This document shows, piece by piece, positions 10,128 through 24,024 of a DNA stretch of 64,000 nt. The notes beneath the pieces are model-generated. The model was not told the origin of the DNA, did not search any database, and saw nothing but the letters and a program-made list of their open reading frames with translations. A program made the position numbers and the translations under genes. Each line of letters opens with the position of its first letter. The first letter of the stretch is position 1. The stretch spans positions 352,686 through 416,685 of the forward strand of contig NZ_LNYO01000013.1 of the NCBI RefSeq assembly GCF_001467895.1, given 5' to 3'. Origin of the DNA: Legionella nautarum. GTDB lineage: Bacteria; Pseudomonadota; Gammaproteobacteria; Legionellales; Legionellaceae.

Positions 10128-10137
10128 CCCCAAGTTT

Positions 10138-10210
10138 GCCGTTGTAGCTCAGTCGGTAGAGCAATTGATTCGTAATCAATAGGTCTGCGGTTCGATTCCG
10201 CACAACGGCA
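10138..10210 (+). tRNA. tRNA-Thr (anticodon CGT)
   Basis: 73 bases that fold as a full cloverleaf. The acceptor stem is GCCGTTG/CAACGGC plus discriminator A. The anticodon stem ATTGA/TCAAT closes a loop TTCGTAA, giving anticodon CGT (reads ACG, Thr). The T-arm is TGCGG-TTCGATT-CCGCA. CCA is not encoded. The 3' half is part of the attL repeat of the island, so this copy of the 3' end was delivered by the element. Confidence 0.96.
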
Positions 10211-10229
10211 TTAGTGAAATCAATGAGTT
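10168..10229 (+). repeat. attL: 62-bp direct repeat, left end of the island
   Basis: Starts in the anticodon loop region of tRNA-Thr (ATTCGTAATCAAT...) and runs 19 bases past the gene. It repeats at 23963-24024 with four mismatches in 62 bases. Two of the four are the paired bases of one T-stem pair (T-A here, C-G at the right end), so both copies can fold. This marks integration by a tyrosine recombinase at the tRNA 3' end. Confidence 0.93.
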
Positions 10230-12221: not shown

Positions 12222-13385
12222 CTATAGTAACGCTTTAATATTGTTACTATATTTAAAATGTGCTGAACTAAAAAAGCCACCACACTTATATTTAATTGAA
12301 CAACCATTACATTCAGGCATATACTCATTTTTCCAGTCAGAAATACTTTTTTTAGCAAAGCCCCAAAGTCTTTTATCTAGCAAACATAGCTGGTGATTAT
12401 AGATTGAAACATTCATACCGAATTTTTCTAAAATTTGAACTGCTTGGACAAGCTCTAATTGATAATCGATAGGATCGATCCATAGTGAATCAAGATTCGC
12501 TTTAGTAAAGCCAATCATTTCAAGCCCCATTAAAGCCACGTGATCTACGAATAGCAAGTTACGTGTAATAAACTCAGCTAGCTGTGGTAAGCGTTGATAA
12601 GTTTGTTTATGTAGGACAACTCGAATTTCAACTTTCTGATTAACTGATTTTAAATTAATTATGCCTTTTAGTGTCTCATTGTAGGCATTATTCGCTTGTA
12701 CAACATAGTCATGAATACTCGGTACATCTGAATAAAGTGGAATGCCAAACATTAAGTCAGGATGAGCTATTTCAGCAATACTTTTTACTAACTGTGTATC
12801 TATGAAGTTTCTACCGTTCGTTAAAACATGGATTGCGGTGCTTGGTAGGTAATTTTTAAATCGTTTAAACATAGTTACAAGATCGTTACCTAATAATGTA
12901 GGCTCACCACCGGTAATGCCTATTTCAGTTGCGGATGGGCTTATTAGTGGGATCATAGATAGGATTTCATTCACCAAATATCTATCGTTGATATTTCTTG
13001 GAGGCTGTGAACACATTAAGCAAAAATTATTACAATTTTCAGTAACCAAAATTGAATTAAATGGAGTGTTTTTTCTGAAAACGACCTTGATAGAATTTTT
13101 TTCTGGATTAATAACAACAATGTCATCTGCTTCAAGATAGTTAAAATCTTGGGGTATGGAAAAGATATTATCTAATTGATTGTCTAAGTTACTGATATGT
13201 TCATTATCAAAAATAAGATAAGCTTTAAAACCTGTTGGTAGATTCGCTAAGTTAGTTTTATTGACGAATACCAAATTAGCTCGAAGCGCATTTGGTATAG
13301 AATGGTTATCTGTGATTTTCGCAACAAGACGCTCGGTGATATTCATTTTCGATAATGATTTCATTCGAGAGTATAGTTTTAACAT
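12222..13385 (-). CDS. hxsC: His-Xaa-Ser system radical SAM maturase HxsC
   Basis: 387 residues. Radical SAM enzyme: the CX3CX2C cluster motif is in VTENCNNFCLMCSQPPR (near residue 121-128), followed by the GITGGEPTLLG glycine-rich SAM site. The C-terminal MPECNGCSIKYKCGGFF provides cysteines for auxiliary binding. It pairs with the second radical SAM gene upstream. In His-Xaa-Ser systems HxsB and HxsC are thought to modify the HxsA repeat peptide. It starts 3 bases after the hxsB stop, so it is in the same operon. The identification rests on gene order and partner genes as well as motifs. Confidence 0.88.
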   Translation of the reverse strand: MLKLYSRMKSLSKMNITERLVAKITDNHSIPNALRANLVFVNKTNLANLPTGFKAYLIFDNEHISNLDNQLDNIFSIPQDFNYLEADDIVVINPEKNSIKVVFRKNTPFNSILVTENCNNFCLMCSQPPRNINDRYLVNEILSMIPLISPSATEIGITGGEPTLLGNDLVTMFKRFKNYLPSTAIHVLTNGRNFIDTQLVKSIAEIAHPDLMFGIPLYSDVPSIHDYVVQANNAYNETLKGIINLKSVNQKVEIRVVLHKQTYQRLPQLAEFITRNLLFVDHVALMGLEMIGFTKANLDSLWIDPIDYQLELVQAVQILEKFGMNVSIYNHQLCLLDKRLWGFAKKSISDWKNEYMPECNGCSIKYKCGGFFSSAHFKYSNNIKALL

Positions 13386-13388
13386 ATT

Positions 13389-14858
13389 TTAACCTCTCAC
13401 CCAGCTCAATAAAACATTGCGTGTATCTTTATCATCCATCAGTCGTATCAAGTGCTTAAAAATCTCCATGTTCTTATAACAAAATACACTTTTAGGCTTG
13501 TTGCCAACCATATCGCCTTGGGTTGCATGATGAAAGACCGGATCACTTCCACAATAGGGTTGAAAGGCACACTCAGAGCAACCAGGCACACTTTCTGACA
13601 TGGTTTGCTCGAGAATATCTAGTAACTTATCTGAACCAATAATTGCTTCATAAGAATCATGATGCAAATTACCCAGTTTAAAAGTTTCATCTTTCATCTC
13701 AGCTAACATTCGAGCTTCGTCAGAAGCATAAACATTACCATCGTAGTTGAAAACAATTGCACTCAATCCAATACCTGCTGGTGATTGGAGATCCACATAT
13801 CCTGGTTCAGAGGGAGTGAACATTTTGGTTAAAATAATCGAAGCGTATTGCTCGGCAAAATAATGTCCATTTTTGTTAATTTCAATGATGTAATCGAGTC
13901 CATCAAAGTAAAACTTGAGCCACTCTTGAGTATCGTATTTTTTGTAATTTTTTGTTTTAATTGCAAACCCATAAGGACTTAGTGGCCTTAAAAAAATTGA
14001 ATTAAATCCATGTTTAATATATTCATCGATAATTTCAGTTCCTCTGGTGAGGCTTGATTTAGTTGTTGTCATTAAGGCAGAAACATTCTGATGACCTAAA
14101 ACTTCTCTGCTCTTATTTATTCCCTGTATGGTTATCTGGTGACTATTTTTACCAGGTCTAGGGCGATTCTTATTATGTAGATCCTCTGGGCCATCGAGAG
14201 AAGTAGAAATTAGGATATGGTGACTGTTACAAAAGTTTAAAATCTCATCATTTATAAAAACAAGATTGGTTGCAATCACAAATTGGATGTCACGATTTTC
14301 AGTTAGATTTCTTTCTTCAACAGTCAAAACAATGTATTTGATTAAATCAAAATTAAGTAGGGATTCTCCACCTTGAAATTCAAACTTTAAGCTACGAGAA
14401 GGACTTTTAAAAGCAAATGCTATTCCTTTATCTGCTGTTTCAGTGGTCATGTCGTAACGTGAGTTATCGACTATTTGGCGTGATACTTGGCAATATGGGC
14501 AAGAATGGTCACAACGTAAACTAACAACAAATATGTGTAAACTAGTAAACTCAGACAGATTGTTTTTTTTAGTGCGGTATTTTAATGCAAGTAAAGGAAT
14601 AGCCACGTCTGAATTATGATCGTAGATAAAATGTTTTGTAATCAGATTATTATAAGTTTCAGAGCCCGCTAAAAGTTGTTTAGTTATTAAATGATTTAAT
14701 TCTATTTTGGTTAGAACAACGTACTCGCCAGCTAGATTAGTCACTACATATCTGTTGGAATCAAGAGATGTAAAATTAAAGGGTAATAGGTTATAAGGAA
14801 CGTCTTTTTTAGTATCATAGTAAGACAATGGTTTAAATTTAAGTCGCTCATCAGTCAT
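13389..14858 (-). CDS. hxsB: His-Xaa-Ser system radical SAM/SPASM maturase HxsB
   Basis: 489 residues. The radical SAM motif is VVSLRCDHSCPYCQVSRQ (CX3CX2C), then FEFQGGESLLNFD. The C-terminal SPASM-type region has CSECAFQPYCGSDPVFH and a later Cys, expected to hold extra iron-sulfur clusters. The first 100 residues resemble a substrate-recognition region. Size and architecture match peptide maturases that install carbon-based crosslinks in RiPP precursors. It lies 5 bases after the hxsD stop and just before hxsC, in one tight operon. Confidence 0.9.
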   Translation of the reverse strand: MTDERLKFKPLSYYDTKKDVPYNLLPFNFTSLDSNRYVVTNLAGEYVVLTKIELNHLITKQLLAGSETYNNLITKHFIYDHNSDVAIPLLALKYRTKKNNLSEFTSLHIFVVSLRCDHSCPYCQVSRQIVDNSRYDMTTETADKGIAFAFKSPSRSLKFEFQGGESLLNFDLIKYIVLTVEERNLTENRDIQFVIATNLVFINDEILNFCNSHHILISTSLDGPEDLHNKNRPRPGKNSHQITIQGINKSREVLGHQNVSALMTTTKSSLTRGTEIIDEYIKHGFNSIFLRPLSPYGFAIKTKNYKKYDTQEWLKFYFDGLDYIIEINKNGHYFAEQYASIILTKMFTPSEPGYVDLQSPAGIGLSAIVFNYDGNVYASDEARMLAEMKDETFKLGNLHHDSYEAIIGSDKLLDILEQTMSESVPGCSECAFQPYCGSDPVFHHATQGDMVGNKPKSVFCYKNMEIFKHLIRLMDDKDTRNVLLSWVRG

Positions 14859-15684: not shown

Positions 15685-15771
15685 GGGGCAATCGGGACAG
15701 CGGGGACAACCTTATAAACATTAGATTTTATGTGTCCCAATGTGAAAAGTTCACTTGGGACAAATGGGACA
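15685..15771. repeat. Iteron cluster 1 (GGGACA / TGTCCC), left of the primase module
   Basis: GGGACA at 15694, 15703, 15757 and 15766 (two pairs, each spaced 9 bases) and the inverted TGTCCC at 15733, plus a degenerate GGGGCA at 15685. The part 15733-15762 is also a hairpin: TGTCCCAA pairs with TTGGGACA and, inside it, GTGAA with TTCAC around a 3-base loop. A matching cluster lies at 18162-18246 on the other side of the regulator-primase pair. Such paired iteron groups are typical of a replication origin bound by the element's own primase/helicase, as in P4-like satellites. Confidence 0.7.
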
Positions 15772-15862: not shown

Positions 15863-16037
15863 TTCCAAGCAATACTTATCGCGAGCAGTAAACTTTTGCA
15901 GATCCACGGTTCTGTAAAAGTAACGGAAAATGAAATATCACGACTATTATCCGGCCGGACAGTCAACTGATATTCATCTAGCAGGATGCATACCGTCGGC
16001 ATTAAGCTGAATGAATAATCATTTGATGAGGTTCCAT

Positions 16038-16310
16038 ATGAATAAAAAACCATCTCGTTTACAACTGTTAAACGAATTTGAATCCGCACCAACTTCTGCG
16101 TTGTTTAATCAACACACTTTGGCCGCTGTTTTAGATTGTTCCACCCAACTATTGGAACGCAATCGTTGGGAAGGAAAGGGCGTTCCCTACCTTAAAATAG
16201 GTCGTAAGGTTTTGTATCGAAAAAGTGACGTATTGTCTTTTCTCCAACAACAGAAAATCTATCGCTCTACTGGTGACGTAGGTGAATTTCTTTCAATGGT
16301 CAACGAATAA
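16038..16310 (+). CDS. AlpA-like helix-turn-helix regulator / excisionase
   Basis: 90 residues from the ATG at 16038, chosen because GAGG lies 7 bases upstream; in-frame ATGs at 16011 and 16026 lack a site. The winged-helix signature of the excisionase/AlpA group is clear: TLAAVLDCSTQLLERNRWEGKGVPYLKIGRKVLYRKSDVLSFLQQ. In phage satellites and islands such proteins switch excision or replication genes on. It sits between iteron cluster 1 and the DUF927 gene, 70 bases ahead of it, probably in one transcript. Confidence 0.85.
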   Translation: MNKKPSRLQLLNEFESAPTSALFNQHTLAAVLDCSTQLLERNRWEGKGVPYLKIGRKVLYRKSDVLSFLQQQKIYRSTGDVGEFLSMVNE

Positions 16311-16383
16311 ATTCCATAGAAATAGATTGTTCAAGGATCGATAAGGTTTCTATCTTCTATGAACACTGCGGGGGAAAACAGTG

Positions 16384-18135
16384 ATGTTGCAAAATCAAAT
16401 TATTACCTTAAAGAACAAAAACGGTCATAGTCCTATAACTTGCGAATACGCAGGAGGCTTTTTTAAATTAAATGAGCAGGGTGTGTCTTTCCTTGGAAAG
16501 GATAAAGACGGTAATCCAATGCCGCCAAAGTGGATTTGTTCTCCGTTGTATGTGGTGGCGAAAACGCGTGATGCTAAAAGCGGTGAGTGGGGTCGATTAC
16601 TCGAATGGCAGGATGATGATGGAGTCATTCATCAATGGGCAATGCCATTAGCCTTGTTACAAGGAGATGCATCCGAAGTTAGACGGGAATTGGCTAGTCT
16701 TGGTTTAACCATTTCACCTCATAGAGTTTCTCGGGATTTACTGGCTACCTATTTGCAGGTGTTCCCTGTTGAAGATCGGGCACGTTGTGTCGAGAAATTG
16801 GGGTGGCATGAAAACCTTTTTATCACTCCTTCGCAAATCTTCGGACACTCCTCTGAAAAAATTGTTTTTCAAAATAGCCATGCGATTGAATCTGCTATGT
16901 CTGTTTCCGGTACTGTAGATGATTGGCGAGAATCAATAGGCCGTCTTGCCTCTGGCAATTCTCGGTTAGTTTTCGCCATATCCGCTGCTTTTGCTCCTGC
17001 TTTAGCAAAGATTGCTGGTGAAGATTCAGGTGGATTTCATTTCAGGGGTGCTTCTTCTAGTGGTAAAAGCACCGCTTTAAAAGTAGCTGCTTCGGTTTGG
17101 GGTAATCCACAGGCTTATTGTCGATTATGGCGCAGTACCACTAATGGGCTTGAAGGACTGGCTGCTTTGCATAACGATGGCTTATTAATTCTGGATGAAT
17201 TAAGTCAGATGGATCCCAAAGAAGCAGGGGAGGCGGCTTACTTGCTAGCCAATGGTCAAGGTAAAACACGAGCCTCACGTCATGGAACAGTCAAACCATC
17301 GTCTCGATGGTCATTGTTCTTTCTCTCTGCTGGAGAAGAATCCTTGATGTCTTTGATGGCCAGAGTAGGGCAGAAAACCAATGCTGGTCAAGAAATACGG
17401 TTAGCAGATATTGAAGCTGATGCTGGTTTGAATAAGGGGATTTTTGAAAAAATCCATAATCAACTCAGTCCAGCTACAATGTCCTTATCCTTAAAGGAAT
17501 ATTCCAGTAAGTATTATGGTGCAGTTGGTATGGCATGGCTGCAAAAGGTGGTGGCAAATCAACCAAGTATTGCAACTAACATTGCTGATGCGATGCAAGA
17601 GTTTGTGAATAGTACTGTCTTACCGGATTCAACAGGACAAATTATTCGCGTAGCCCGGCGGTTTGCCTTGGTTGCTGTAGCTGGCGAATTGGCTAGCCAA
17701 TATGGATTGACCGGATGGCAAGAAGGCGAGGCTACCTATGCAGCTTACAAATGTTATAGAGCATGGCTGGATCATTTTGGAATAGAGGGTAACAAGGAGG
17801 ACAGAGCGATATTAGCTCAAGTCAGAGCATTTTTTGAATCTCATGGTGCCAGTCGGTTTGATAATATCAGAACGCCAAACAATGAGAGGATTCAAAATCG
17901 TGCTGGATTTTACCTTACCGATGATGCAGGTTTTCGCGTGTATATGGTATTAACGGAAGTCTTTAAAAAAGAGCTATGCATGGGGTTTGAGCCTAGAATG
18001 GTAGTCCGTATATTAATGAATGAAGGTTGGCTAAAGCCAGCAGCAGATGGATCGCCCTCTCATAAACCAAGAATTAAGGGAGTTGGAACACCCAGACTAT
18101 ACATGTTTACAGATAAAATCTGGGGCGGAGAGTAA
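16384..18135 (+). CDS. DUF927 domain protein, primase/helicase-type ATPase
   Basis: About 583 residues (ATG at 16384; a GTG directly before it is possible). Walker A is FRGASSSGKSTALK and Walker B is GLLILDELSQMD, in a DUF927 setting (WICSPLYVVAKTRDAKSGEWGRLLEWQD at the N-terminus, CRLWRSTTNGLEGLAALHNDG in the middle). The C-terminal part has a winged-helix-like region (GFYLTDDAGFRVYMVLTEVFKKELC). Such proteins are replication ATPases of plasmids, prophages and islands. It is flanked on both sides by GGGACA/TGTCCC clusters, which suggests it initiates replication there. Confidence 0.88.
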   Translation: MLQNQIITLKNKNGHSPITCEYAGGFFKLNEQGVSFLGKDKDGNPMPPKWICSPLYVVAKTRDAKSGEWGRLLEWQDDDGVIHQWAMPLALLQGDASEVRRELASLGLTISPHRVSRDLLATYLQVFPVEDRARCVEKLGWHENLFITPSQIFGHSSEKIVFQNSHAIESAMSVSGTVDDWRESIGRLASGNSRLVFAISAAFAPALAKIAGEDSGGFHFRGASSSGKSTALKVAASVWGNPQAYCRLWRSTTNGLEGLAALHNDGLLILDELSQMDPKEAGEAAYLLANGQGKTRASRHGTVKPSSRWSLFFLSAGEESLMSLMARVGQKTNAGQEIRLADIEADAGLNKGIFEKIHNQLSPATMSLSLKEYSSKYYGAVGMAWLQKVVANQPSIATNIADAMQEFVNSTVLPDSTGQIIRVARRFALVAVAGELASQYGLTGWQEGEATYAAYKCYRAWLDHFGIEGNKEDRAILAQVRAFFESHGASRFDNIRTPNNERIQNRAGFYLTDDAGFRVYMVLTEVFKKELCMGFEPRMVVRILMNEGWLKPAADGSPSHKPRIKGVGTPRLYMFTDKIWGGE

Positions 18136-18161
18136 CCTTATTTCGATAAATCAGAACTATT

Positions 18162-18246
18162 TGTCCCATTATTTTGTAATCTTGGGACATCTTGGGACGG
18201 CTACAAGCCAGTATTTACGGGTTGTCCCTCATGTCCCAATTGTCCC
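18162..18246. repeat. Iteron cluster 2 (TGTCCC), right of the primase gene
   Basis: TGTCCC at 18162, 18223, 18232 and 18241 (the last three spaced exactly 9 bases) and GGGACA at 18184 with GGGACG at 18194. Six hexamers in 85 bases, starting 27 bases after the primase-type gene and ending just before the convergent recombinase-like gene. Same motif and same 9-base step as cluster 1 at 15685-15771. Confidence 0.7.
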
Positions 18247-18256
18247 AGATAAATTT

Positions 18257-19066
18257 CTATTCTTTAAGATATAACCAAAGTGTATTTCGAGATTTTATTC
18301 CCATCTCATCACGTATCAGCAAGCAAGTCCTATAATTTTCATGTTCAGGCAGAAGGTACGCATACATTTGCGTTGCATACAAATAACGCCAGCTTTTGGT
18401 ACTGGATAAACGGTGCTTTGCTAATGCACTGCGCCAGATGATGCGGATTTCTTCGTAAGATTTTAATTGAAGTAAGTTACCATTTTGTTGAGTGAGCCAG
18501 TTAAAAAGATTGAGTACCGCTTTCTGGTTTCCGGTTCGTACAGGTATGGTACGGTCAGTGGAATTAAAAGCAATATCTCGAGTTATCCAAAGTGAGTCTT
18601 CTCTAACTTGGATATGTGGCTTAATCAGAATTGCCTCTTTGAAGGTGAGTCCAAATTCTGTTTGTAATCCCATGATTACTCTGGCTATAGGATCTTGAAG
18701 CGACTTCCAAATATCTGGAGAGATTGTTTTCTTTCTCTTTTTTCTTGCTTTAGGTCTTGAGAGTTCGAGTGATTGATTATCAATATTAGCAATAGGACAA
18801 TTGTTCATCTGCAAAAAACGACGAATGATGGTCATGTATCGCATGATAGTGATTGGATTAATATTCTGTTTTTTCCAATAACGCACCAACTTATGAACCT
18901 GCTCAGATTGCAAAGCCTGCCATGAAGGTGGCATTTGCCGAATAACAAACAAGTCATCAATCATTTTATGAATGACATAAGCACGGTGTTTTCGATATAG
19001 GTACTTGCCTTGCCCATCCTGTTTAATTGGTCGATTAGCGAATTGTCTTAAGGATTGTGTACGCAT
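18257..19066 (-). CDS. Tyrosine-recombinase-like protein with altered active site
   Basis: 269 residues. An N-terminal SAM-like core-binding region (VHKLVRYWKKQNINPITIMRYMTIIRRFL) is followed by a catalytic-domain-like half. The second Arg (KSWRYLYATQMYAYLL) and the final Tyr (MGIKSRNTLWLYLKE) are in place. The first Arg position reads FGLTFKEAIL (Thr for Arg), the His of HxxR is Lys, and the His before the Tyr is Ile. It is therefore either a diverged subfamily (integrase_1-like proteins of integrative elements) or a non-cutting DNA-binding relative. It is not the main integrase, which lies at 22564-23808. Confidence 0.7.
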   Translation of the reverse strand: MRTQSLRQFANRPIKQDGQGKYLYRKHRAYVIHKMIDDLFVIRQMPPSWQALQSEQVHKLVRYWKKQNINPITIMRYMTIIRRFLQMNNCPIANIDNQSLELSRPKARKKRKKTISPDIWKSLQDPIARVIMGLQTEFGLTFKEAILIKPHIQVREDSLWITRDIAFNSTDRTIPVRTGNQKAVLNLFNWLTQQNGNLLQLKSYEEIRIIWRSALAKHRLSSTKSWRYLYATQMYAYLLPEHENYRTCLLIRDEMGIKSRNTLWLYLKE

Positions 19067-19098
19067 CTTCCTATCCGCAAAAATTAGTTAAAAAAAAA

Positions 19099-19660
19099 TT
19101 TGCCCTGTGTATTGTTTAGTGTTGGTCGAGCGGTTCACTCTCTGTTGAAACCCGGTAAAAACCGTAAAGCTCGAAGAAGGGGGCAAATCAATCGTTATAA
19201 GGCAAACGACCTCGCCTGTACTGCTATAGTTTTTTTGGTGGGTTTTTCTCCTTAATAAAATAAAGTAAACGAAAGTGATAAAGCAGGGCTTTATCTCTAA
19301 TCCATGGTCAAATGAAATGACTTAGAGTTCCGAAGAACTCCCCTTACCGAACGGTAAAGGTTCCTGAAGGGTTTCCCGACTATACGTCCAGCCACAAGGT
19401 TAGGGAATGAGAGTGGCTTAGCATAAGACGCCTAAGCGTTTCATCGGATTTTCACCGATTCATCAGTCATGCTTCATCTAAAAAATAGCAAAGTGCAGAT
19501 CTGGGGGCAAGAGCATTTCAGGAATATTTTGTCCTATCATATCTGGTGCGTCAGGACAAATAGTCTTTTAATGCTTGGTGTAGGCGAGTTAGCGATGTCG
19601 AATATTCCTGCGTCACTGCTGGAAAATGGCAGTGACGCAGAAAATATCGTGTTGGGTTTT
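19099..19660. ncRNA. Candidate large structured RNA (or structured DNA) in a gene-free region
   Basis: No convincing gene lies between 19067 and 19841. Instead there are many exact inverted repeats: ATTTGCCC 19099/GGGCAAAT 19182 enclosing TCGAGC 19127/GCTCGA 19170, GGTT 19133/AACC 19150 and CGGT 19154/ACCG 19162; TCGTT 19193/AACGA 19206; GATAAAGC 19278/GCTTTATC 19289; GAGTTC 19325/GAACTC 19335; TTACC/GGTAA near 19344-19357; AGCCAC 19390/GTGGCT 19413; ATCGG 19443/CCGAT 19455; CAGGAATATT 19519/AATATTCCTG 19601 enclosing TTTGTCCT 19528/AGGACAAA 19553; and CTGCGTCACTGC 19608/GCAGTGACGCAG 19629. Strand is unknown. It could be a large ornate RNA of mobile elements, a long leader of the defence operon, or a transfer/replication site. 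Confidence 0.55.
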
Positions 19661-19841
19661 GACCATCATTAATTTGAATAGTTTTCAAAAATCAATCTAA
19701 AGAAGTTTTTGGATTTTGTATTGTTTTTGATATGGAATGGTTAAATTTCGCATGGGAAGCAATCCCTCTTGAAATATAAAAAATCGACTCCATCTAACGG
19801 CAGTTAAACAATAAATATATGTACATACGGAGATGTTTACT

Positions 19842-20231
19842 ATGGCGAAAAAGCGTGTTTTCATTAGCTTCGATTATGACAATGACGCGTTCCTAAAAAC
19901 GGCATTAGTTGGGCAGTCCAAATATTCTGACAGTCCTTTTGAATTTGCCGATCATTCTATTAAAGAGCATTTAACAGGAGATTGGGTAAAGAAGGCAGAA
20001 CCGCGAATTAAGGGGGTTGATGTTGTGGTCGTGATTTGTGGGGAAAAAACTCACACTGCTTCTGGGGTTAGTGCCGAACTTAGGATTGCTCAACAACATA
20101 AAGTACCTTACTTCTTCCTCTCAGGATATTCTGATAGAACATGTACAAAACCAATTGGAGCGGCTCAATCCGATAAACTCTACAGGTGGACTTGGGACAA
20201 CTTGAAAGCTTTAATTAATGGGAGCCGCTGA
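19842..20231 (+). CDS. TIR-like domain protein (ThsB type) of a TIR-caspase defence pair
   Basis: 129 residues from the ATG at 19842, with CGGAG 9 bases upstream (the ATG at 19833 directly abuts that site and is unlikely). A single TIR-like domain: KRVFISFDYDND at the start, HSIKEHLTGDWVKKAEPRI, VDVVVVICGEKTHTASGVSAELRIAQQHKVPYFFLSG. The Glu of SAELRIA is the probable NADase/cyclase residue. This is the ThsB-like (DUF1863) group that makes a nucleotide signal upon phage infection. Its stop overlaps the start of the caspase-like gene by one base (TGATG), so the two proteins are made together. Confidence 0.88.
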   Translation: MAKKRVFISFDYDNDAFLKTALVGQSKYSDSPFEFADHSIKEHLTGDWVKKAEPRIKGVDVVVVICGEKTHTASGVSAELRIAQQHKVPYFFLSGYSDRTCTKPIGAAQSDKLYRWTWDNLKALINGSR

Positions 20232-21178
20232 TGCGTAAAGCACTTGTTATAGGAGTTGATAATTATCCATCTTCACCATTACGTGGATGCGTTAACGACG
20301 CAGCTGCAATTGCTGGTGTGTTAGAAGCAAATGGTGATGGCTCGCCTAACTTTGATGTACGGCTGATAACATCACCGAGCAATATGGTGGATAGAGCTTC
20401 CCTTCGTAAATCAATTCAAGAATTATTTGCCTCGAAGTGCGATGCTGCGTTGTTTTACTTCTCTGGTCATGGGCTGATTAAAAGCACCGGTGGTTTCTTG
20501 GTAACAACGGATTATGCTCAGTATGATGAAGGCGTTTCTATGGATGAGTTACTGTCTTATGCCAATCAGTCGCCTGCACAAGATAAAATAATCATACTCG
20601 ATTGCTGCCATTCTGGTGCAGCTGGTACACCGACAATGAATGAAAATAATATGTCTCAACTGAAGGAAGGTTTATCTGTTCTTACTGCAAGCAGAGATTC
20701 TGAGTCTGCGTTAGAAATAAATGGTCGTGGAGTTTTTACTTCGCTTGTTGTTGATGGTTTGAATGGTGGTGCTGCCGATCTACGAGGTCATGTCACTCCT
20801 GGTAGTATCTATGCCTATGTTGACCAAGCCCTTGGGCCATGGGATCAACGACCTATTTTTAAAACCAATGTGACACGGTTTACTTCTTTGCGCTCAATAA
20901 CACCTAGGGTGCCTTTGGAGAAACTGCGTAAGATAACAGAGTATTTCAAAACCCCATCGGATGAATTTCAACTTGATCCTAGTTATGAGTTTACTTCTGA
21001 TGCTCCGAACGATGAGCATGTTAAAATTTTCCAAGACCTGCAGAAATTCTTTAGTGTGGGGCTTGTTGTTCCTGTCGGAGAGGAGTTTATGTATTTTGCT
21101 GCAATGAATTCGAAATCCTGCCGTCTAACAGCCAGTGGTTACCAATACTGGCGGCTTGTGAATGATAAGCGTATTTAG
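20231..21178 (+). CDS. Caspase-like (C14) protease, effector of the TIR system
   Basis: 315 residues. Residues 1-200 form a caspase/metacaspase p20-like domain: RKALVIGVDNYPSSPLRGCVNDAAAIAGVL, catalytic His80 in YFSGHGLI, catalytic Cys126 in ILDCCHSGAAG. The last ~100 residues (from VPLEKLRKITEYF) form a separate domain that I do not recognise and which may sense the signal. With an upstream ThsB-like TIR gene this matches the recently described TIR-caspase (type IV Thoeris) arrangement, in which the TIR product activates the protease to kill the infected cell. The exact subtype is inference. Confidence 0.88.
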   Translation: MRKALVIGVDNYPSSPLRGCVNDAAAIAGVLEANGDGSPNFDVRLITSPSNMVDRASLRKSIQELFASKCDAALFYFSGHGLIKSTGGFLVTTDYAQYDEGVSMDELLSYANQSPAQDKIIILDCCHSGAAGTPTMNENNMSQLKEGLSVLTASRDSESALEINGRGVFTSLVVDGLNGGAADLRGHVTPGSIYAYVDQALGPWDQRPIFKTNVTRFTSLRSITPRVPLEKLRKITEYFKTPSDEFQLDPSYEFTSDAPNDEHVKIFQDLQKFFSVGLVVPVGEEFMYFAAMNSKSCRLTASGYQYWRLVNDKRI

Positions 21179-21541: not shown

Positions 21542-22567
21542 CTACTCATCACAGCCAGGTAATTCATTTAAAATAGCACGCTCACGTTCTAATTCAGATC
21601 GAAGCTCTTCTTCTGTTGGTAAATAATGCAAATACTTGGAAGCAAAGAGCTGTTTGCTTTCGGTTAATACCGAGTATTTAGCAACAGCCTCACTTTTCTC
21701 ACTACATAAAATTAAACCGATGGTTGGGTTGTCGTCAGCGTCTTTGCGATGTTGATCATAAATTCTTACGTAAGTATCCATTTGCCCTACATCTTGATGA
21801 GTCAGTTTACCTATTTTTAAGTCAATAAGAAGGAAGCATTTTAGTTTATAGTTGTAAAACACTAAATCGATGTAAAAATCTTGATCTTCTGTGGCGATTC
21901 GTTGCTGGCGTGCTACAAAAGCAAAGCCTTTTCCGAGCTCTAGTAAAAACTGTTGAAGGTTATTGATCAACGCTTGTTCTAAGTTACTTTCTAATGTTGA
22001 AGCGTAGGGTAAATTCAAAAATTCTAAAATATAGGGATCGCGCAAATAATCTTTTGGGGTGTTTTTTAATTCATCGGTACGGGCTTTCGCTTCATCAATT
22101 ACAGGCTGTTTTTCTTTACTAGATAATAATCGCTCATAATACAGTTTATCTATCTGTCGTTCTAGTGCTCTGGTACTCCAAGACTGTTCTATCGCTTCTT
22201 TCATATACCATTCACGAGCTACTTTATTTTCTACACTTAATAGAGCGCGATAATGTGTCCAGCTTAATTCGGACCGCACTGCGGTCCAAATTGGATAGGC
22301 CAAGTAAAAGGTTCGCATTCTTCTCAAATTGCGTTCATTAAAACCTTTGCCAAACTCAGATTGCAATTGTTTAGAAAGATGTTTTAATTGATATTCTCCA
22401 TAAGTAGCATGTTTTGCACCCTGTTGCTCATGTTCAATAATTAAACGACCGACATTCCAATAAGCTTGCACCATAGTATGGTTAACTGTCTTCTGTAGAT
22501 GGTCTCGTGCTTGATTCAGTATAGAACGAATCGCCGTAAGCAATTCTGGCATTTCAAGCATACTCAT
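21542..22567 (-). CDS. PDDEXK nuclease-like protein, DUF1016 (YhcG) family
   Basis: 341 residues. The N-terminal DUF1016_N region has the usual VNHTMVQAYWNVGRLIIEHEQQG and FGKGFNERNLRRMRTFYLAYP, followed by LSWTHYRALLSV. The C-terminal PDDEXK-type core shows FVARQQRIATEDQDFYIDLVFYNYKLKCFLLIDLKIGKLTHQDVGQM, where D (DFYIDLV) and DLK are the expected metal-binding residues. The family is linked to mobile islands, toxins and defence, with an uncertain role. Its ATG overlaps the integrase stop (ATGA), so it is expressed with the integrase. A GGACCGC palindrome lies within the gene (22271-22287). Confidence 0.88.
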   Translation of the reverse strand: MSMLEMPELLTAIRSILNQARDHLQKTVNHTMVQAYWNVGRLIIEHEQQGAKHATYGEYQLKHLSKQLQSEFGKGFNERNLRRMRTFYLAYPIWTAVRSELSWTHYRALLSVENKVAREWYMKEAIEQSWSTRALERQIDKLYYERLLSSKEKQPVIDEAKARTDELKNTPKDYLRDPYILEFLNLPYASTLESNLEQALINNLQQFLLELGKGFAFVARQQRIATEDQDFYIDLVFYNYKLKCFLLIDLKIGKLTHQDVGQMDTYVRIYDQHRKDADDNPTIGLILCSEKSEAVAKYSVLTESKQLFASKYLHYLPTEEELRSELERERAILNELPGCDE

Positions 22568-23808
22568 TTCAAAAACTCCGTTTTTGTAGGTTGGATGGCA
22601 ATAACATCAGCTGATTTTACTACACCCATGCATTTTAAAATATAATCTGTAATAAGCTGCATAGGCTTTCGTAGCCGCTCAACATCAACAATAATATATC
22701 CAGCAGTTACATCATTACTCATCTTATGGTTCATTAAACGCTTCAATGCATAAGCAGGGATATCCAGACTTTCTGCAATGGTGATAAAAGTACGCCTCAA
22801 ATCATGTACAGTAAAATGAACACCGGAATTTTTTATCACATGCGCCATTGTCTTACGCGGTTCAATAATATGACCTGCAGCCCCCGGTCCTGGGAAAACA
22901 TAGTCGTTGGTTGCTTTTCCTTTTCTGGCAATCAGCAAATCATAAAGAAAGTCAGAAAGGGGGAGGGTGTGGGATTCATTATTTTTGGTTTTATTGATAG
23001 TAAATGATTTTGCTTTTAAGTCGAGATCAGACCATTTCAAAGTCGCTGCTTCTTGTCGGCGTAGACCTGTTAATAAGATTAAAAGCAGATAGTCGCGTAA
23101 TGTATCATTTTGGATTTGTTGTAGCCCAGCATACCATGCGGCTAGTTCATGAGATTTTATATAGGTTTTTCGTCTTTCGATGTGGTACCAGGCGCGTGTT
23201 TGTGAAAGGCGTTTTACTGGGTTATCGATGAAAAGAGAGTGACCACTATTGTCTTCATACTGGCCAGCTGCAAAATTGAATAAAGCTCTTAGAATTCGCA
23301 TGGCTAAATTAGCATAGGCTTCTCCATGCTCATTGCCCAGCTTTTCGTGGTATTTAGCTATGCGATCTCTAGTGATCGATAACATAGGTTTACTCTTCCA
23401 GCTCGTGAAGGCTTTATCTAATATGTGTTTGTAATTGTCTATAGTTCTGGGCTTTAAGTTCTTTCTGGTTTTTAGGTAGTCTTTAAATACTTGATTCAAA
23501 GTTATATCTCGAACCTCAGTTGCCTTCTTCTCAGCAACTGGATCAATGCCCATGGCGATTTGCCCTAAAAGATGAAGGGCTTTGTTTTTTGCCATTTCAG
23601 CAGTCAATTCTGGGTAATGCCCTAAAGTAATGCGACAACGTTTCTTATTTATAAATTTTTCAACGAAAAAGGCTTTTGCTCCTCCCGAGGTCACACGTAT
23701 GCCGAAGCCTTTCAGGTTGTCATCGTAATATCTTTTTTGTGTGGTTTTTCCTACTTCCGTTGCTTGAGGAAGAGGGAGGTTTTCTACGTTTGTTTTGGTT
23801 ATTTTCAT
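22564..23808 (-). CDS. int: Tyrosine-type integrase of the island (P4-like, DUF4102 arm domain)
   Basis: 414 residues. The N-terminal arm-binding DUF4102 region (YDDNLKGFGIRVTSGGAKAFFVEK, ITLGHYPELTAEMAKNKA) is followed by a core-binding region and a full catalytic domain: Arg in LTGLRRQEAATLKW, HDLRRTFITIAESL (HxxR), and LMNHKMSNDVTAGYI with His and the Tyr nucleophile. It starts 155 bases inside attR, so it lies at the end away from the intact tRNA. Together with attL and attR it can excise the 13.8-kb island. The promoter is visible at 23869-23897. Confidence 0.95.
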   Translation of the reverse strand: MKITKTNVENLPLPQATEVGKTTQKRYYDDNLKGFGIRVTSGGAKAFFVEKFINKKRCRITLGHYPELTAEMAKNKALHLLGQIAMGIDPVAEKKATEVRDITLNQVFKDYLKTRKNLKPRTIDNYKHILDKAFTSWKSKPMLSITRDRIAKYHEKLGNEHGEAYANLAMRILRALFNFAAGQYEDNSGHSLFIDNPVKRLSQTRAWYHIERRKTYIKSHELAAWYAGLQQIQNDTLRDYLLLILLTGLRRQEAATLKWSDLDLKAKSFTINKTKNNESHTLPLSDFLYDLLIARKGKATNDYVFPGPGAAGHIIEPRKTMAHVIKNSGVHFTVHDLRRTFITIAESLDIPAYALKRLMNHKMSNDVTAGYIIVDVERLRKPMQLITDYILKCMGVVKSADVIAIQPTKTEFLK

Positions 23809-23962: not shown

Positions 23963-24024
23963 ATTCGTAATCAATAGGTCCGCGGTTCGATTCCGCGCAA
24001 CGGCATCAGTGAAATCAATGGGTT
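23963..24024 (+). repeat. attR: 62-bp direct repeat of the tRNA-Thr 3' end
   Basis: Copy of 10168-10229 with four mismatches; it includes the second half of the anticodon arm and the whole T-arm and 3' acceptor strand of tRNA-Thr. Its T-stem is CGCGG/CCGCG where attL has TGCGG/CCGCA. It should be the original chromosomal 3' end, displaced by integration. Confidence 0.93.

Follow-up and report, generated by a model that had tools for sequence, protein, structure and literature searches.

Within a 64,000-nt stretch of the Legionella nautarum genome (contig NZ_LNYO01000013.1, positions 352,686–416,685; hereafter the window), the intergenic region 19067–19841 carries a module of about 550 bp, read on the minus strand, that lies ahead of the gene for Int1 (18257–19066), a relative of tyrosine recombinases. 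Its parts follow one another in the order inverted repeat 1 (IR1), inverted repeat 2 (IR2), promoter, type I hammerhead ribozyme, pseudoknot running into a RAGATH-32 RNA, RAGATH-13 RNA and Int1. We think that this is, on balance, the mobilisation module of the Legionella conjugative elements that carry a genomic-island-associated type IV secretion system (GI-T4SS), and of smaller islands carried along by them; the region itself is probably an unrecognised transfer start site of these islands rather than part of the neighbouring defence genes. This would offer a concrete answer to how GI-T4SS elements of Legionella conjugate, yet have neither a recognisable relaxase nor a recognisable origin of transfer (oriT), as was stated in 2013 (PMC3864950). 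An earlier reading of the region (the original prediction) had suggested a folded RNA of a mobile element or a structured replication or transfer site; both descriptions fit and were right in outline.

Nineteen of 20 homologous loci come from Legionella or Legionellaceae, and the remaining one, in a gammaproteobacterial bin, matches only weakly; the two plasmid matches are likewise from Legionella. A phage element was rejected as an identity for the region, blastn of 19098–19478 giving no match in 50,697 phage records. From 96 aligned copies we derived a set of 68 that is non-redundant at 95% identity; three alignments (A5, A6 and A7) hold 44, 50 and 46 of these, hand-picked for diversity. The module is followed by Int1 and a second recombinase, Int2, in 33 of the 68 copies, by Int1 and then iteron-like repeats in 19 (the type of the window) and by Int1 only in 3 (among them L091, so counted, yet possessing Int2), and 13 copies are without an intact Int1, defined as a frame of 251–299 aa starting ≤70 nt from RAGATH-13. 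In six of these 13 (L063, L065, L069, L075, L081 and L095) no int1-like start follows RAGATH-13.

At the head of the predicted transcript stands a promoter-like sequence (19482–19510, minus strand), made up of TTGCCC (19510–19505), a 17-nt spacer and the extended −10 element TGC-TATTTT (19487–19482). The pattern TTGnnn-17-(TGn)TAnnnT ends 12–16 nt before CTGANGA in 67 of the 68 copies and in none of 1360 base-shuffled segments. Transcription is predicted to start near 19475, where the ribozyme begins; with the promoter placed just 5′ of the ribozyme, the transcript should begin at stem I. The ribozyme (19421–19472, minus strand) is, judged by its sequence, a canonical type I hammerhead, predicted to cleave itself between 19427 (C17) and 19426. 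It consists of stem I (19472–19467/19426–19421), CTGATGA (19466–19460), stem II, GAAA, stem III and GUC, and thus has the core, the cleavage-site triplet, the three stems and the open stem I of its class. CUGANGA, GAAA and GUC are invariant in all 68 copies; 98.4% of the cells in the stems are paired, 11 of 15 pairs covary, and cells with double changes number 112, against 28 in shuffles and 1–8 in slid controls. Rfam gives a weak Hammerhead_3 match below threshold (19.4 bits, gathering 48.5), and the call stands despite this score because, in our judgement, the core and the covariation outweigh it. In its canonical core, three stems and GUC cut site the ribozyme resembles the type I hammerheads of bacteria and prophages; it differs in its place at the predicted 5′ end of a transcript, before a pseudoknot, and in falling under the Rfam threshold. 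A 2011 survey (PMC3088659) notes that three Legionella strains have hammerheads ahead of ardA. By pattern, the loci contain 124 hammerheads (not de-duplicated), of which 21 have no RAGATH-13 downstream; the pseudoknot pattern is found in 17 of these 21, and several of them come after int2. Second promoter–hammerhead–pseudoknot units without RAGATH-13 (L019 11424, L020 11896, L066 7028 and L002 3147) sit beyond the recombinase genes in full elements.

Directly after the cut site, a pseudoknot (19373–19418, minus strand) is formed by AGCCAC (19418–19413) with GTGGCT (19395–19390), crossed by TTCCC (19407–19403) with GGGAA (19377–19373). In 46 copies 97.0% and 95.9% of the cells of the two helices are paired, with double changes at two pairs per helix; the number of pair types is no higher than in shuffles (149 of 500 get there). 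When neighbouring hairpins and those of RAGATH-32 are included, 10 of 21 pairs show double changes and 93.5% of cells are paired, again with no more pair types than in shuffles. The RAGATH-32 RNA (RF02922; 19318–19395, minus strand) scores 105.2 bits against a gathering threshold of 41.8 over model positions 1–78, and it opens with the 3′ half of the pseudoknot, which here extends the family model in the 5′ direction. A conserved hairpin, TCGTT/AACGA (19192–19209, minus strand; 89.2% of cells paired, two of five pairs covarying), stands just 5′ of the RAGATH-13 RNA (RF02688; 19098–19192, minus strand; 107.3 bits, gathering 80, positions 1–95). The nested repeats ATTTGCCC/GGGCAAAT picked out by the original prediction are real and are this RNA. 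Its double changes fall in two internal hairpins and one P2 pair, with none in the outer stem P1; taken together with the small hairpin, 10 of 28 pairs covary and pair types do not exceed those of shuffles (139 of 500 get there). A Rho-independent terminator at the T9 after RAGATH-13 was considered and rejected, the T run being lost in distant copies. Both RAGATH families are thus matched at full length above gathering, here in one predicted transcript with a hammerhead. RAGATH denotes RNAs associated with genes associated with twister and hammerhead ribozymes; Rfam types RAGATH-13 as a ribozyme and RAGATH-32 as Cis-reg, and no paper on either was found among open-licence papers.

Several expectations raised by the original prediction can be settled from these elements. 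The inverted repeats of 19067–19841 sit where it had placed them, and the covariation it had asked of aligned homologues is present in the hammerhead, IR2, the pseudoknot and RAGATH-13. It had called the hairpin density far beyond that of ordinary intergenic DNA; an excess over shuffles is real but moderate, and the folding energy is only mildly unusual. Perfect 8-nt arms within 100 nt number 6 in 19067–19841 against 1.4 ± 1.25 in dinucleotide shuffles, none of 300 reaching 6; 7-nt arms number 9 against 4.8 (14 of 300 shuffles get there) and 6-nt arms 28 against 18.4 (8 of 300). The 12-bp stem (19608/19629) is kept in homologous copies. The 10-bp long-range helix (19519/19601) is present in the window, but its sequence is lost in the more distant alignment rows and we therefore give it no role. 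The plus-strand frame 19469–19672 crosses the conserved ribozyme and promoter of the opposite strand. As to class, where the original prediction could not match the region to a known one, Rfam recognises RAGATH-13 and RAGATH-32 above gathering and the hammerhead below it. GOLLD and ROOL are ornate RNAs found in mobile DNA, of which its size and setting had been a reminder; the module is made of different parts, and in a search with 4227 Rfam families neither of the two was matched in the window with the gathering threshold applied, nor in 18000–20300 with the cut-off loosened to E 5. The region had also been placed upstream of a defence operon. Both Rfam families lie on the minus strand, so the RNA runs toward the open reading frame 18257–19066, which it precedes, and away from the plus-strand TIR–caspase pair.

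Upstream of the promoter, and outside the predicted transcript, lie IR1 and IR2. IR1 (CTGCGTCACTGC, 9 nt, GCAGTGACGCAG; 19605–19643, arms 19608–19619 and 19629–19640) forms the outer edge of the module and its junction with cargo; 97.3% of its cells are paired in 50 aligned copies and its arms are almost invariant in sequence. The exact pattern was found in 80 of 103 loci, and the window's own genome has it once; a scan of viral_contigs for IR1 returned 112 stretches. In IR2 (TTTGTCCT...AGGACAAA; 19528–19560) pairing is kept while the sequence drifts, with 10 of 15 pairs changed on both sides and 86.0% of cells paired in the 50 copies. The edge of conservation is sharp at IR1 in the 68 copies, and blastn alignments through the module all stop by 19647, except for two loci from the window's own genome. 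The roughly 120 bp of IR1–IR2 are a candidate oriT. An extra, lone IR1–IR2 unit without promoter or ribozyme is present in L065, L069, L075 and L095. Three of these loci (L065, L069 and L075) are islands without Int1 and with different inner frames that lie, by eye, near apparently the same uvrB and aminotransferase genes; they have in common a gene beginning MNFLFANAHELAALLEL next to the extra unit, for which the L075 copy gave no Pfam match.

Beyond IR1 the DNA is variable. The nearest frames of at least 90 aa fall into 48 families in 75 loci (not de-duplicated; the window's own locus is counted four times). Matches listed for the 48 proteins include PADLOC models for SIR2, a PtuA-like ATPase, AbiLi and reverse transcriptases (25 of 145 PADLOC families) and, in Pfam (25 of 49 families), unrelated enzymes. 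In the window the position is held by a TIR-like protein (19833–20231, plus strand; PF08937 and the ThsB model) and a caspase-like protein (20231–21178, plus strand; PF00656 and a caspase model). Because 48 families occupy this position, the pair looks like ordinary cargo, one of many unrelated kinds, and a role of the region linked to the neighbouring defence genes, which had been raised, is not borne out.

The case for mobilisation comes next from the proteins. Int2, found in sister copies, keeps R145, K171, H229, R232, H233, H288 and Y297 in 16 of 16 sequences and has the Pfam integrase domains; a PDB sequence search gave no match at E 0.01. Int1 (269 aa, minus strand) was recognised by its profile match to Int2 (hhalign 99.1%; genome model match, E 1.8e-10) and has a degraded active site, R227 and Y266 being kept in 32 of 32 sequences with T141 read at the place of the first arginine. 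A contig of Salmonella Kentucky, 3,144 bases long and deposited as a phage (OR851053.1, L225), encodes a 321-aa protein with R162, H247, R250, H251 and Y319, and a 98-aa frame starts one codon after its stop; because these features match MpsA and MpsB as described in PMC6414798, we assign the contig to mpsAB of Salmonella genomic island 1 (SGI1). Int2 aligns with the 321-aa protein at 31% identity over 248 positions (BLASTP E 2e-24; hhalign 99.3%; tblastn E 3e-14). Sequence comparison thus makes it a homologue of MpsA, which has been proposed as an atypical relaxase of SGI1. PMC6414798 and PMC9299015 report that SGI1 depends for its transfer on MpsA and MpsB, on an inverted-repeat oriT and on an RNA that it encodes itself. 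Rather than phage DNA, the 'Salmonella phage' record would seem to be a fragment of a host's SGI1 with mpsA and mpsB.

Relatives of Int2 outside Legionella occur on one record with a T4SS coupling-protein gene in plasmids of Acinetobacter, Psychrobacter, Pleionea and Vibrio. Of the 46 top-scoring records for the coupling protein, 40 recur in the Int2 matches listed, many of them near-identical plasmids and so not independent, and in the Pleionea plasmid (L229) the two genes are direct neighbours. On a 5.7-kb Acinetobacter plasmid typed non-mobilizable (L222 1639–4637) an Int2 relative stands in a run with the coupling-protein gene, and on three rhizobial plasmids (L226 4947–6139, L227 4947–6157 and L228 5010–6190) an Int2 relative overlaps a frame of about 100 aa in a layout like that of mpsA–mpsB in SGI1. 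A plasmid of Legionella israelensis (L220) has Int1, Int2 and a RAGATH-13-like RNA just under threshold (76.1 bits), as well as an abiF RNA above the Rfam threshold (2497–2533) beside an Abi family gene.

Last, the module tracks GI-T4SS conjugation clusters. Of 143 genomes of the order, 76 were found to have RAGATH-13; among 369 genomes sampled from the class there were 3, each belonging to the window's family and one of them its own genome. The GI-T4SS marker TIGR03759 is found in 56 of the 143; RAGATH-13 is present in 51 of these 56 and in 25 of the 87 without the marker (Fisher P 5e-14, kinship ignored). Single loci were compared in 21 genomes picked because they contain RAGATH-13. Of the 25 marker loci there, 23 have both Int2 and RAGATH-13 no farther than 52 kb away on their contig, two of the 23 sharing one Int2, at a rough chance of 0.07 per locus; the order-wide count was made to correct for this choice and its result is less clean. 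None of the 25 loci has TraI_2, the one relaxase family searched in the genomes, within 60 kb, the nearest on the same contig being 354 kb off. Near-full-length Int2 genes in the same 21 genomes (fragments left out) have RAGATH-13 within 2.5 kb in 34 of 35 cases. It also speaks for the mobilisation reading that the 13 copies without an intact Int1 keep the ribozyme core. We take Int1 and Int2 to be the tandem integrases of the published GI-T4SS elements, on the basis of position and annotation.

These observations allow us to propose how the module might work. The promoter beside IR1–IR2 would make an RNA beginning at the hammerhead, which would cut itself off to leave a 5′-OH RNA. This RNA would be capped by the pseudoknot, contain both RAGATH-32 and RAGATH-13, and precede int1 and, in full elements, int2 as well. 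Nicking of the origin would fall to Int2, which belongs to the MpsA family and is a complete tyrosine recombinase, with Int1, its degraded paralogue, as DNA-binding partner. The RNA would play the part that sgm-sRNA plays in SGI1 and be required for transfer, rather than serving just as the leader of an mRNA. The island in the window would be a passenger with the cis part, the RNA and Int1; having no Int2, it would need an element that supplies both Int2 and a T4SS. It is a more tentative proposal, which could well prove wrong, that a self-cleaving ribozyme is a working part of bacterial conjugation, its trimmed RNA binding an Int1/Int2 relaxosome and being needed for DNA transfer of Legionella elements and their passengers. 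Were RAGATH-13 to cleave as well, in keeping with its Rfam type, this RNA would be released by a cut on either side. The parts are known singly, and no paper joining them was found among open-licence papers. One process would join two orphan RNA families with a hammerhead; the RNA requirement of SGI1 would seem not to be a one-off, and may recur in mobilisation of the tyrosine-recombinase type. Such mobilisation may also be the reason why typing tools score elements of this kind as non-mobilizable, the type given to 111 of the 173 plasmid records that have Int2 relatives.

The module resembles that of SGI1 in several points: Int2 and MpsA belong to the same tyrosine-recombinase-type family, the R, H, R, H and Y of the catalytic protein being found in Int2 of the sister copies; each has a tandem partner gene and an adjoining inverted-repeat region; an RNA, predicted in the case of Legionella, runs from an upstream promoter toward the recombinase genes; and helper-dependent islands, of which the window island would be one, use the module. 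It differs in that Legionella elements with their own T4SS carry the module too, and in that the degraded partner comes first and the catalytic protein second. TcpM of pCW3 (MOBM) and MobK of pIGRK are likewise tyrosine-recombinase-like relaxases, the oriT region of MobK lying directly upstream of it; in passages of PMC12857230 and PMC8152469 no RNA component is described for them.

A number of observations count against the mobilisation module as proposed. The window's own genome has neither TIGR03759 nor Int2. Order-wide, 46 of 79 marker loci have RAGATH-13 within 60 kb on the same contig among the matches listed, from which the places of loci were taken (scoring over 40 genomes used stricter filters); in five further loci the distance is 67, 70, 73, 119 or 449 kb, and the contigs of the other 28 lack it, for part but not all of which broken assemblies account. 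Five marker genomes have no RAGATH-13 match, and four of them (G056, G133, G045 and G011) have no Int2 match either, so some GI-T4SS elements lack the module; three of these genomes (G056, G133 and G045) are each at least 95% complete. A conjugative or mobilizable type was assigned to 62 of the 173 plasmid records in which Int2 relatives occur, and on the three rhizobial plasmids the relatives stand alongside canonical transfer or relaxase genes. MpsB, the tandem partner in SGI1, shows no detectable homology to Int1 (hhalign 0.2%). The oriT of SGI1 is inside the primary transcript, whereas IR1–IR2 is upstream of the promoter, and the hammerhead, RAGATH-32 and RAGATH-13 of the Legionella RNA have no match on the SGI1 contig. 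Nor did Rfam at E 0.1–0.5 place a hammerhead near the non-Legionella Int2 relatives of L221–L223 and L226–L229; a loose pattern search gave three matches in L222, not taken as hammerheads, and none in L225. The minus-strand RNA 19478–19098 has a folding energy of z −1.33, with 5 of 100 shuffles folding equally well. Finally, in the 13 copies without intact Int1 the loss could be recent, which would leave an intact RNA without function.

The strongest competing account, although an unlikely one, is that the RNAs serve only as a cis-regulatory leader of int1–int2, setting the stability or translation of the recombinase mRNA and in this way controlling excision of the island. The RNAs do sit between promoter and start codon, the Cis-reg type of RAGATH-32 suits such a role, and deletion of one tandem integrase is reported to raise the episomal form (Wee et al., citing Lautner 2013). 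A leader leaves unaccounted for the conservation of IR1 and IR2, which are outside the predicted RNA, and the 13 copies that keep module and ribozyme core without intact Int1, subject to the caveat that the loss may be recent. Less probable still is that IR1 is a site at which Int1 and Int2 capture or swap cargo, like attI of an integron, with the variable genes as cassettes. The 48 families beyond IR1 would be expected of such a site, Int2 is a complete tyrosine recombinase, and in L065, L075 and L095 a frame lies between two IR1–IR2 units. However, the spacer between the IR1 arms ranges from about 5 to 15 nt, a variability ill suited to strand exchange, and the window has a single IR1 site with no half-sites elsewhere. 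In a scan of L001–L103, L219 and L220 allowing ≤2 mismatches per arm, two sites were found only in L065, L067 (which has two modules), L069, L075, L090 and L095.

Structured RNAs near origins often control replication, and 21 of the 68 copies adjoin iteron-like repeats (at least three TGTCCC/GGGACA repeats; 19 of the 21 are followed by Int1, while the other 2 lack an intact one), as would be expected if the module were a replication control region whose RNA is a primer or copy-number RNA of a DUF927/iteron replicon. We regard this as very unlikely, since 33 of the 68 copies are of the Int1–Int2 type without such repeats and the module tracks the T4SS marker instead. A chance cluster of ordinary mobile-DNA RNA elements with no joint function is scarcely credible: each RNA family is already known alone, and hammerheads are common near integrases (PMC3088659), but order, spacing, edge and promoter are kept across the 68 copies, with covariation.

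The island that carries the module in the window is bounded by two 62-bp tRNA-Thr repeats that are 93.5% identical, the left (10168–10229) derived from the 3′ part of tRNA-Thr (10137–10211) and the right at 23963–24024, and it encodes an integrase (22564–23808, minus strand; PF00589 and PF13356). Its core comprises, on the plus strand, a helix-turn-helix protein (16011–16310; PF12728, E 2.1e-05, just under the Pfam cut-off) and a DUF927 helicase-like replication protein (16381–18135; PF06048, E 3.2e-109) that is distantly like Cch1 of staphylococcal cassette chromosomes (NF047345, E 3.4e-18, far below the equivalog cut-off of that model). Iteron-like TGTCCC/GGGACA repeats lie beside the helicase gene (18162–18246), and a second cluster lies on the opposite side of the replication genes (15694–15771). 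No transfer system was seen among the island proteins scanned. Two adjoining radical-SAM genes (12222–14858, minus strand) give weak matches to models of pVip, the prokaryotic viperins (E 4e-07 and 1e-07), and are further cargo of the island. Adjoining the integrase is a gene for a DUF1016/YhcG PDDEXK protein (21542–22567, minus strand), which matches the PADLOC candidate PDC-S02 (E 4e-144).
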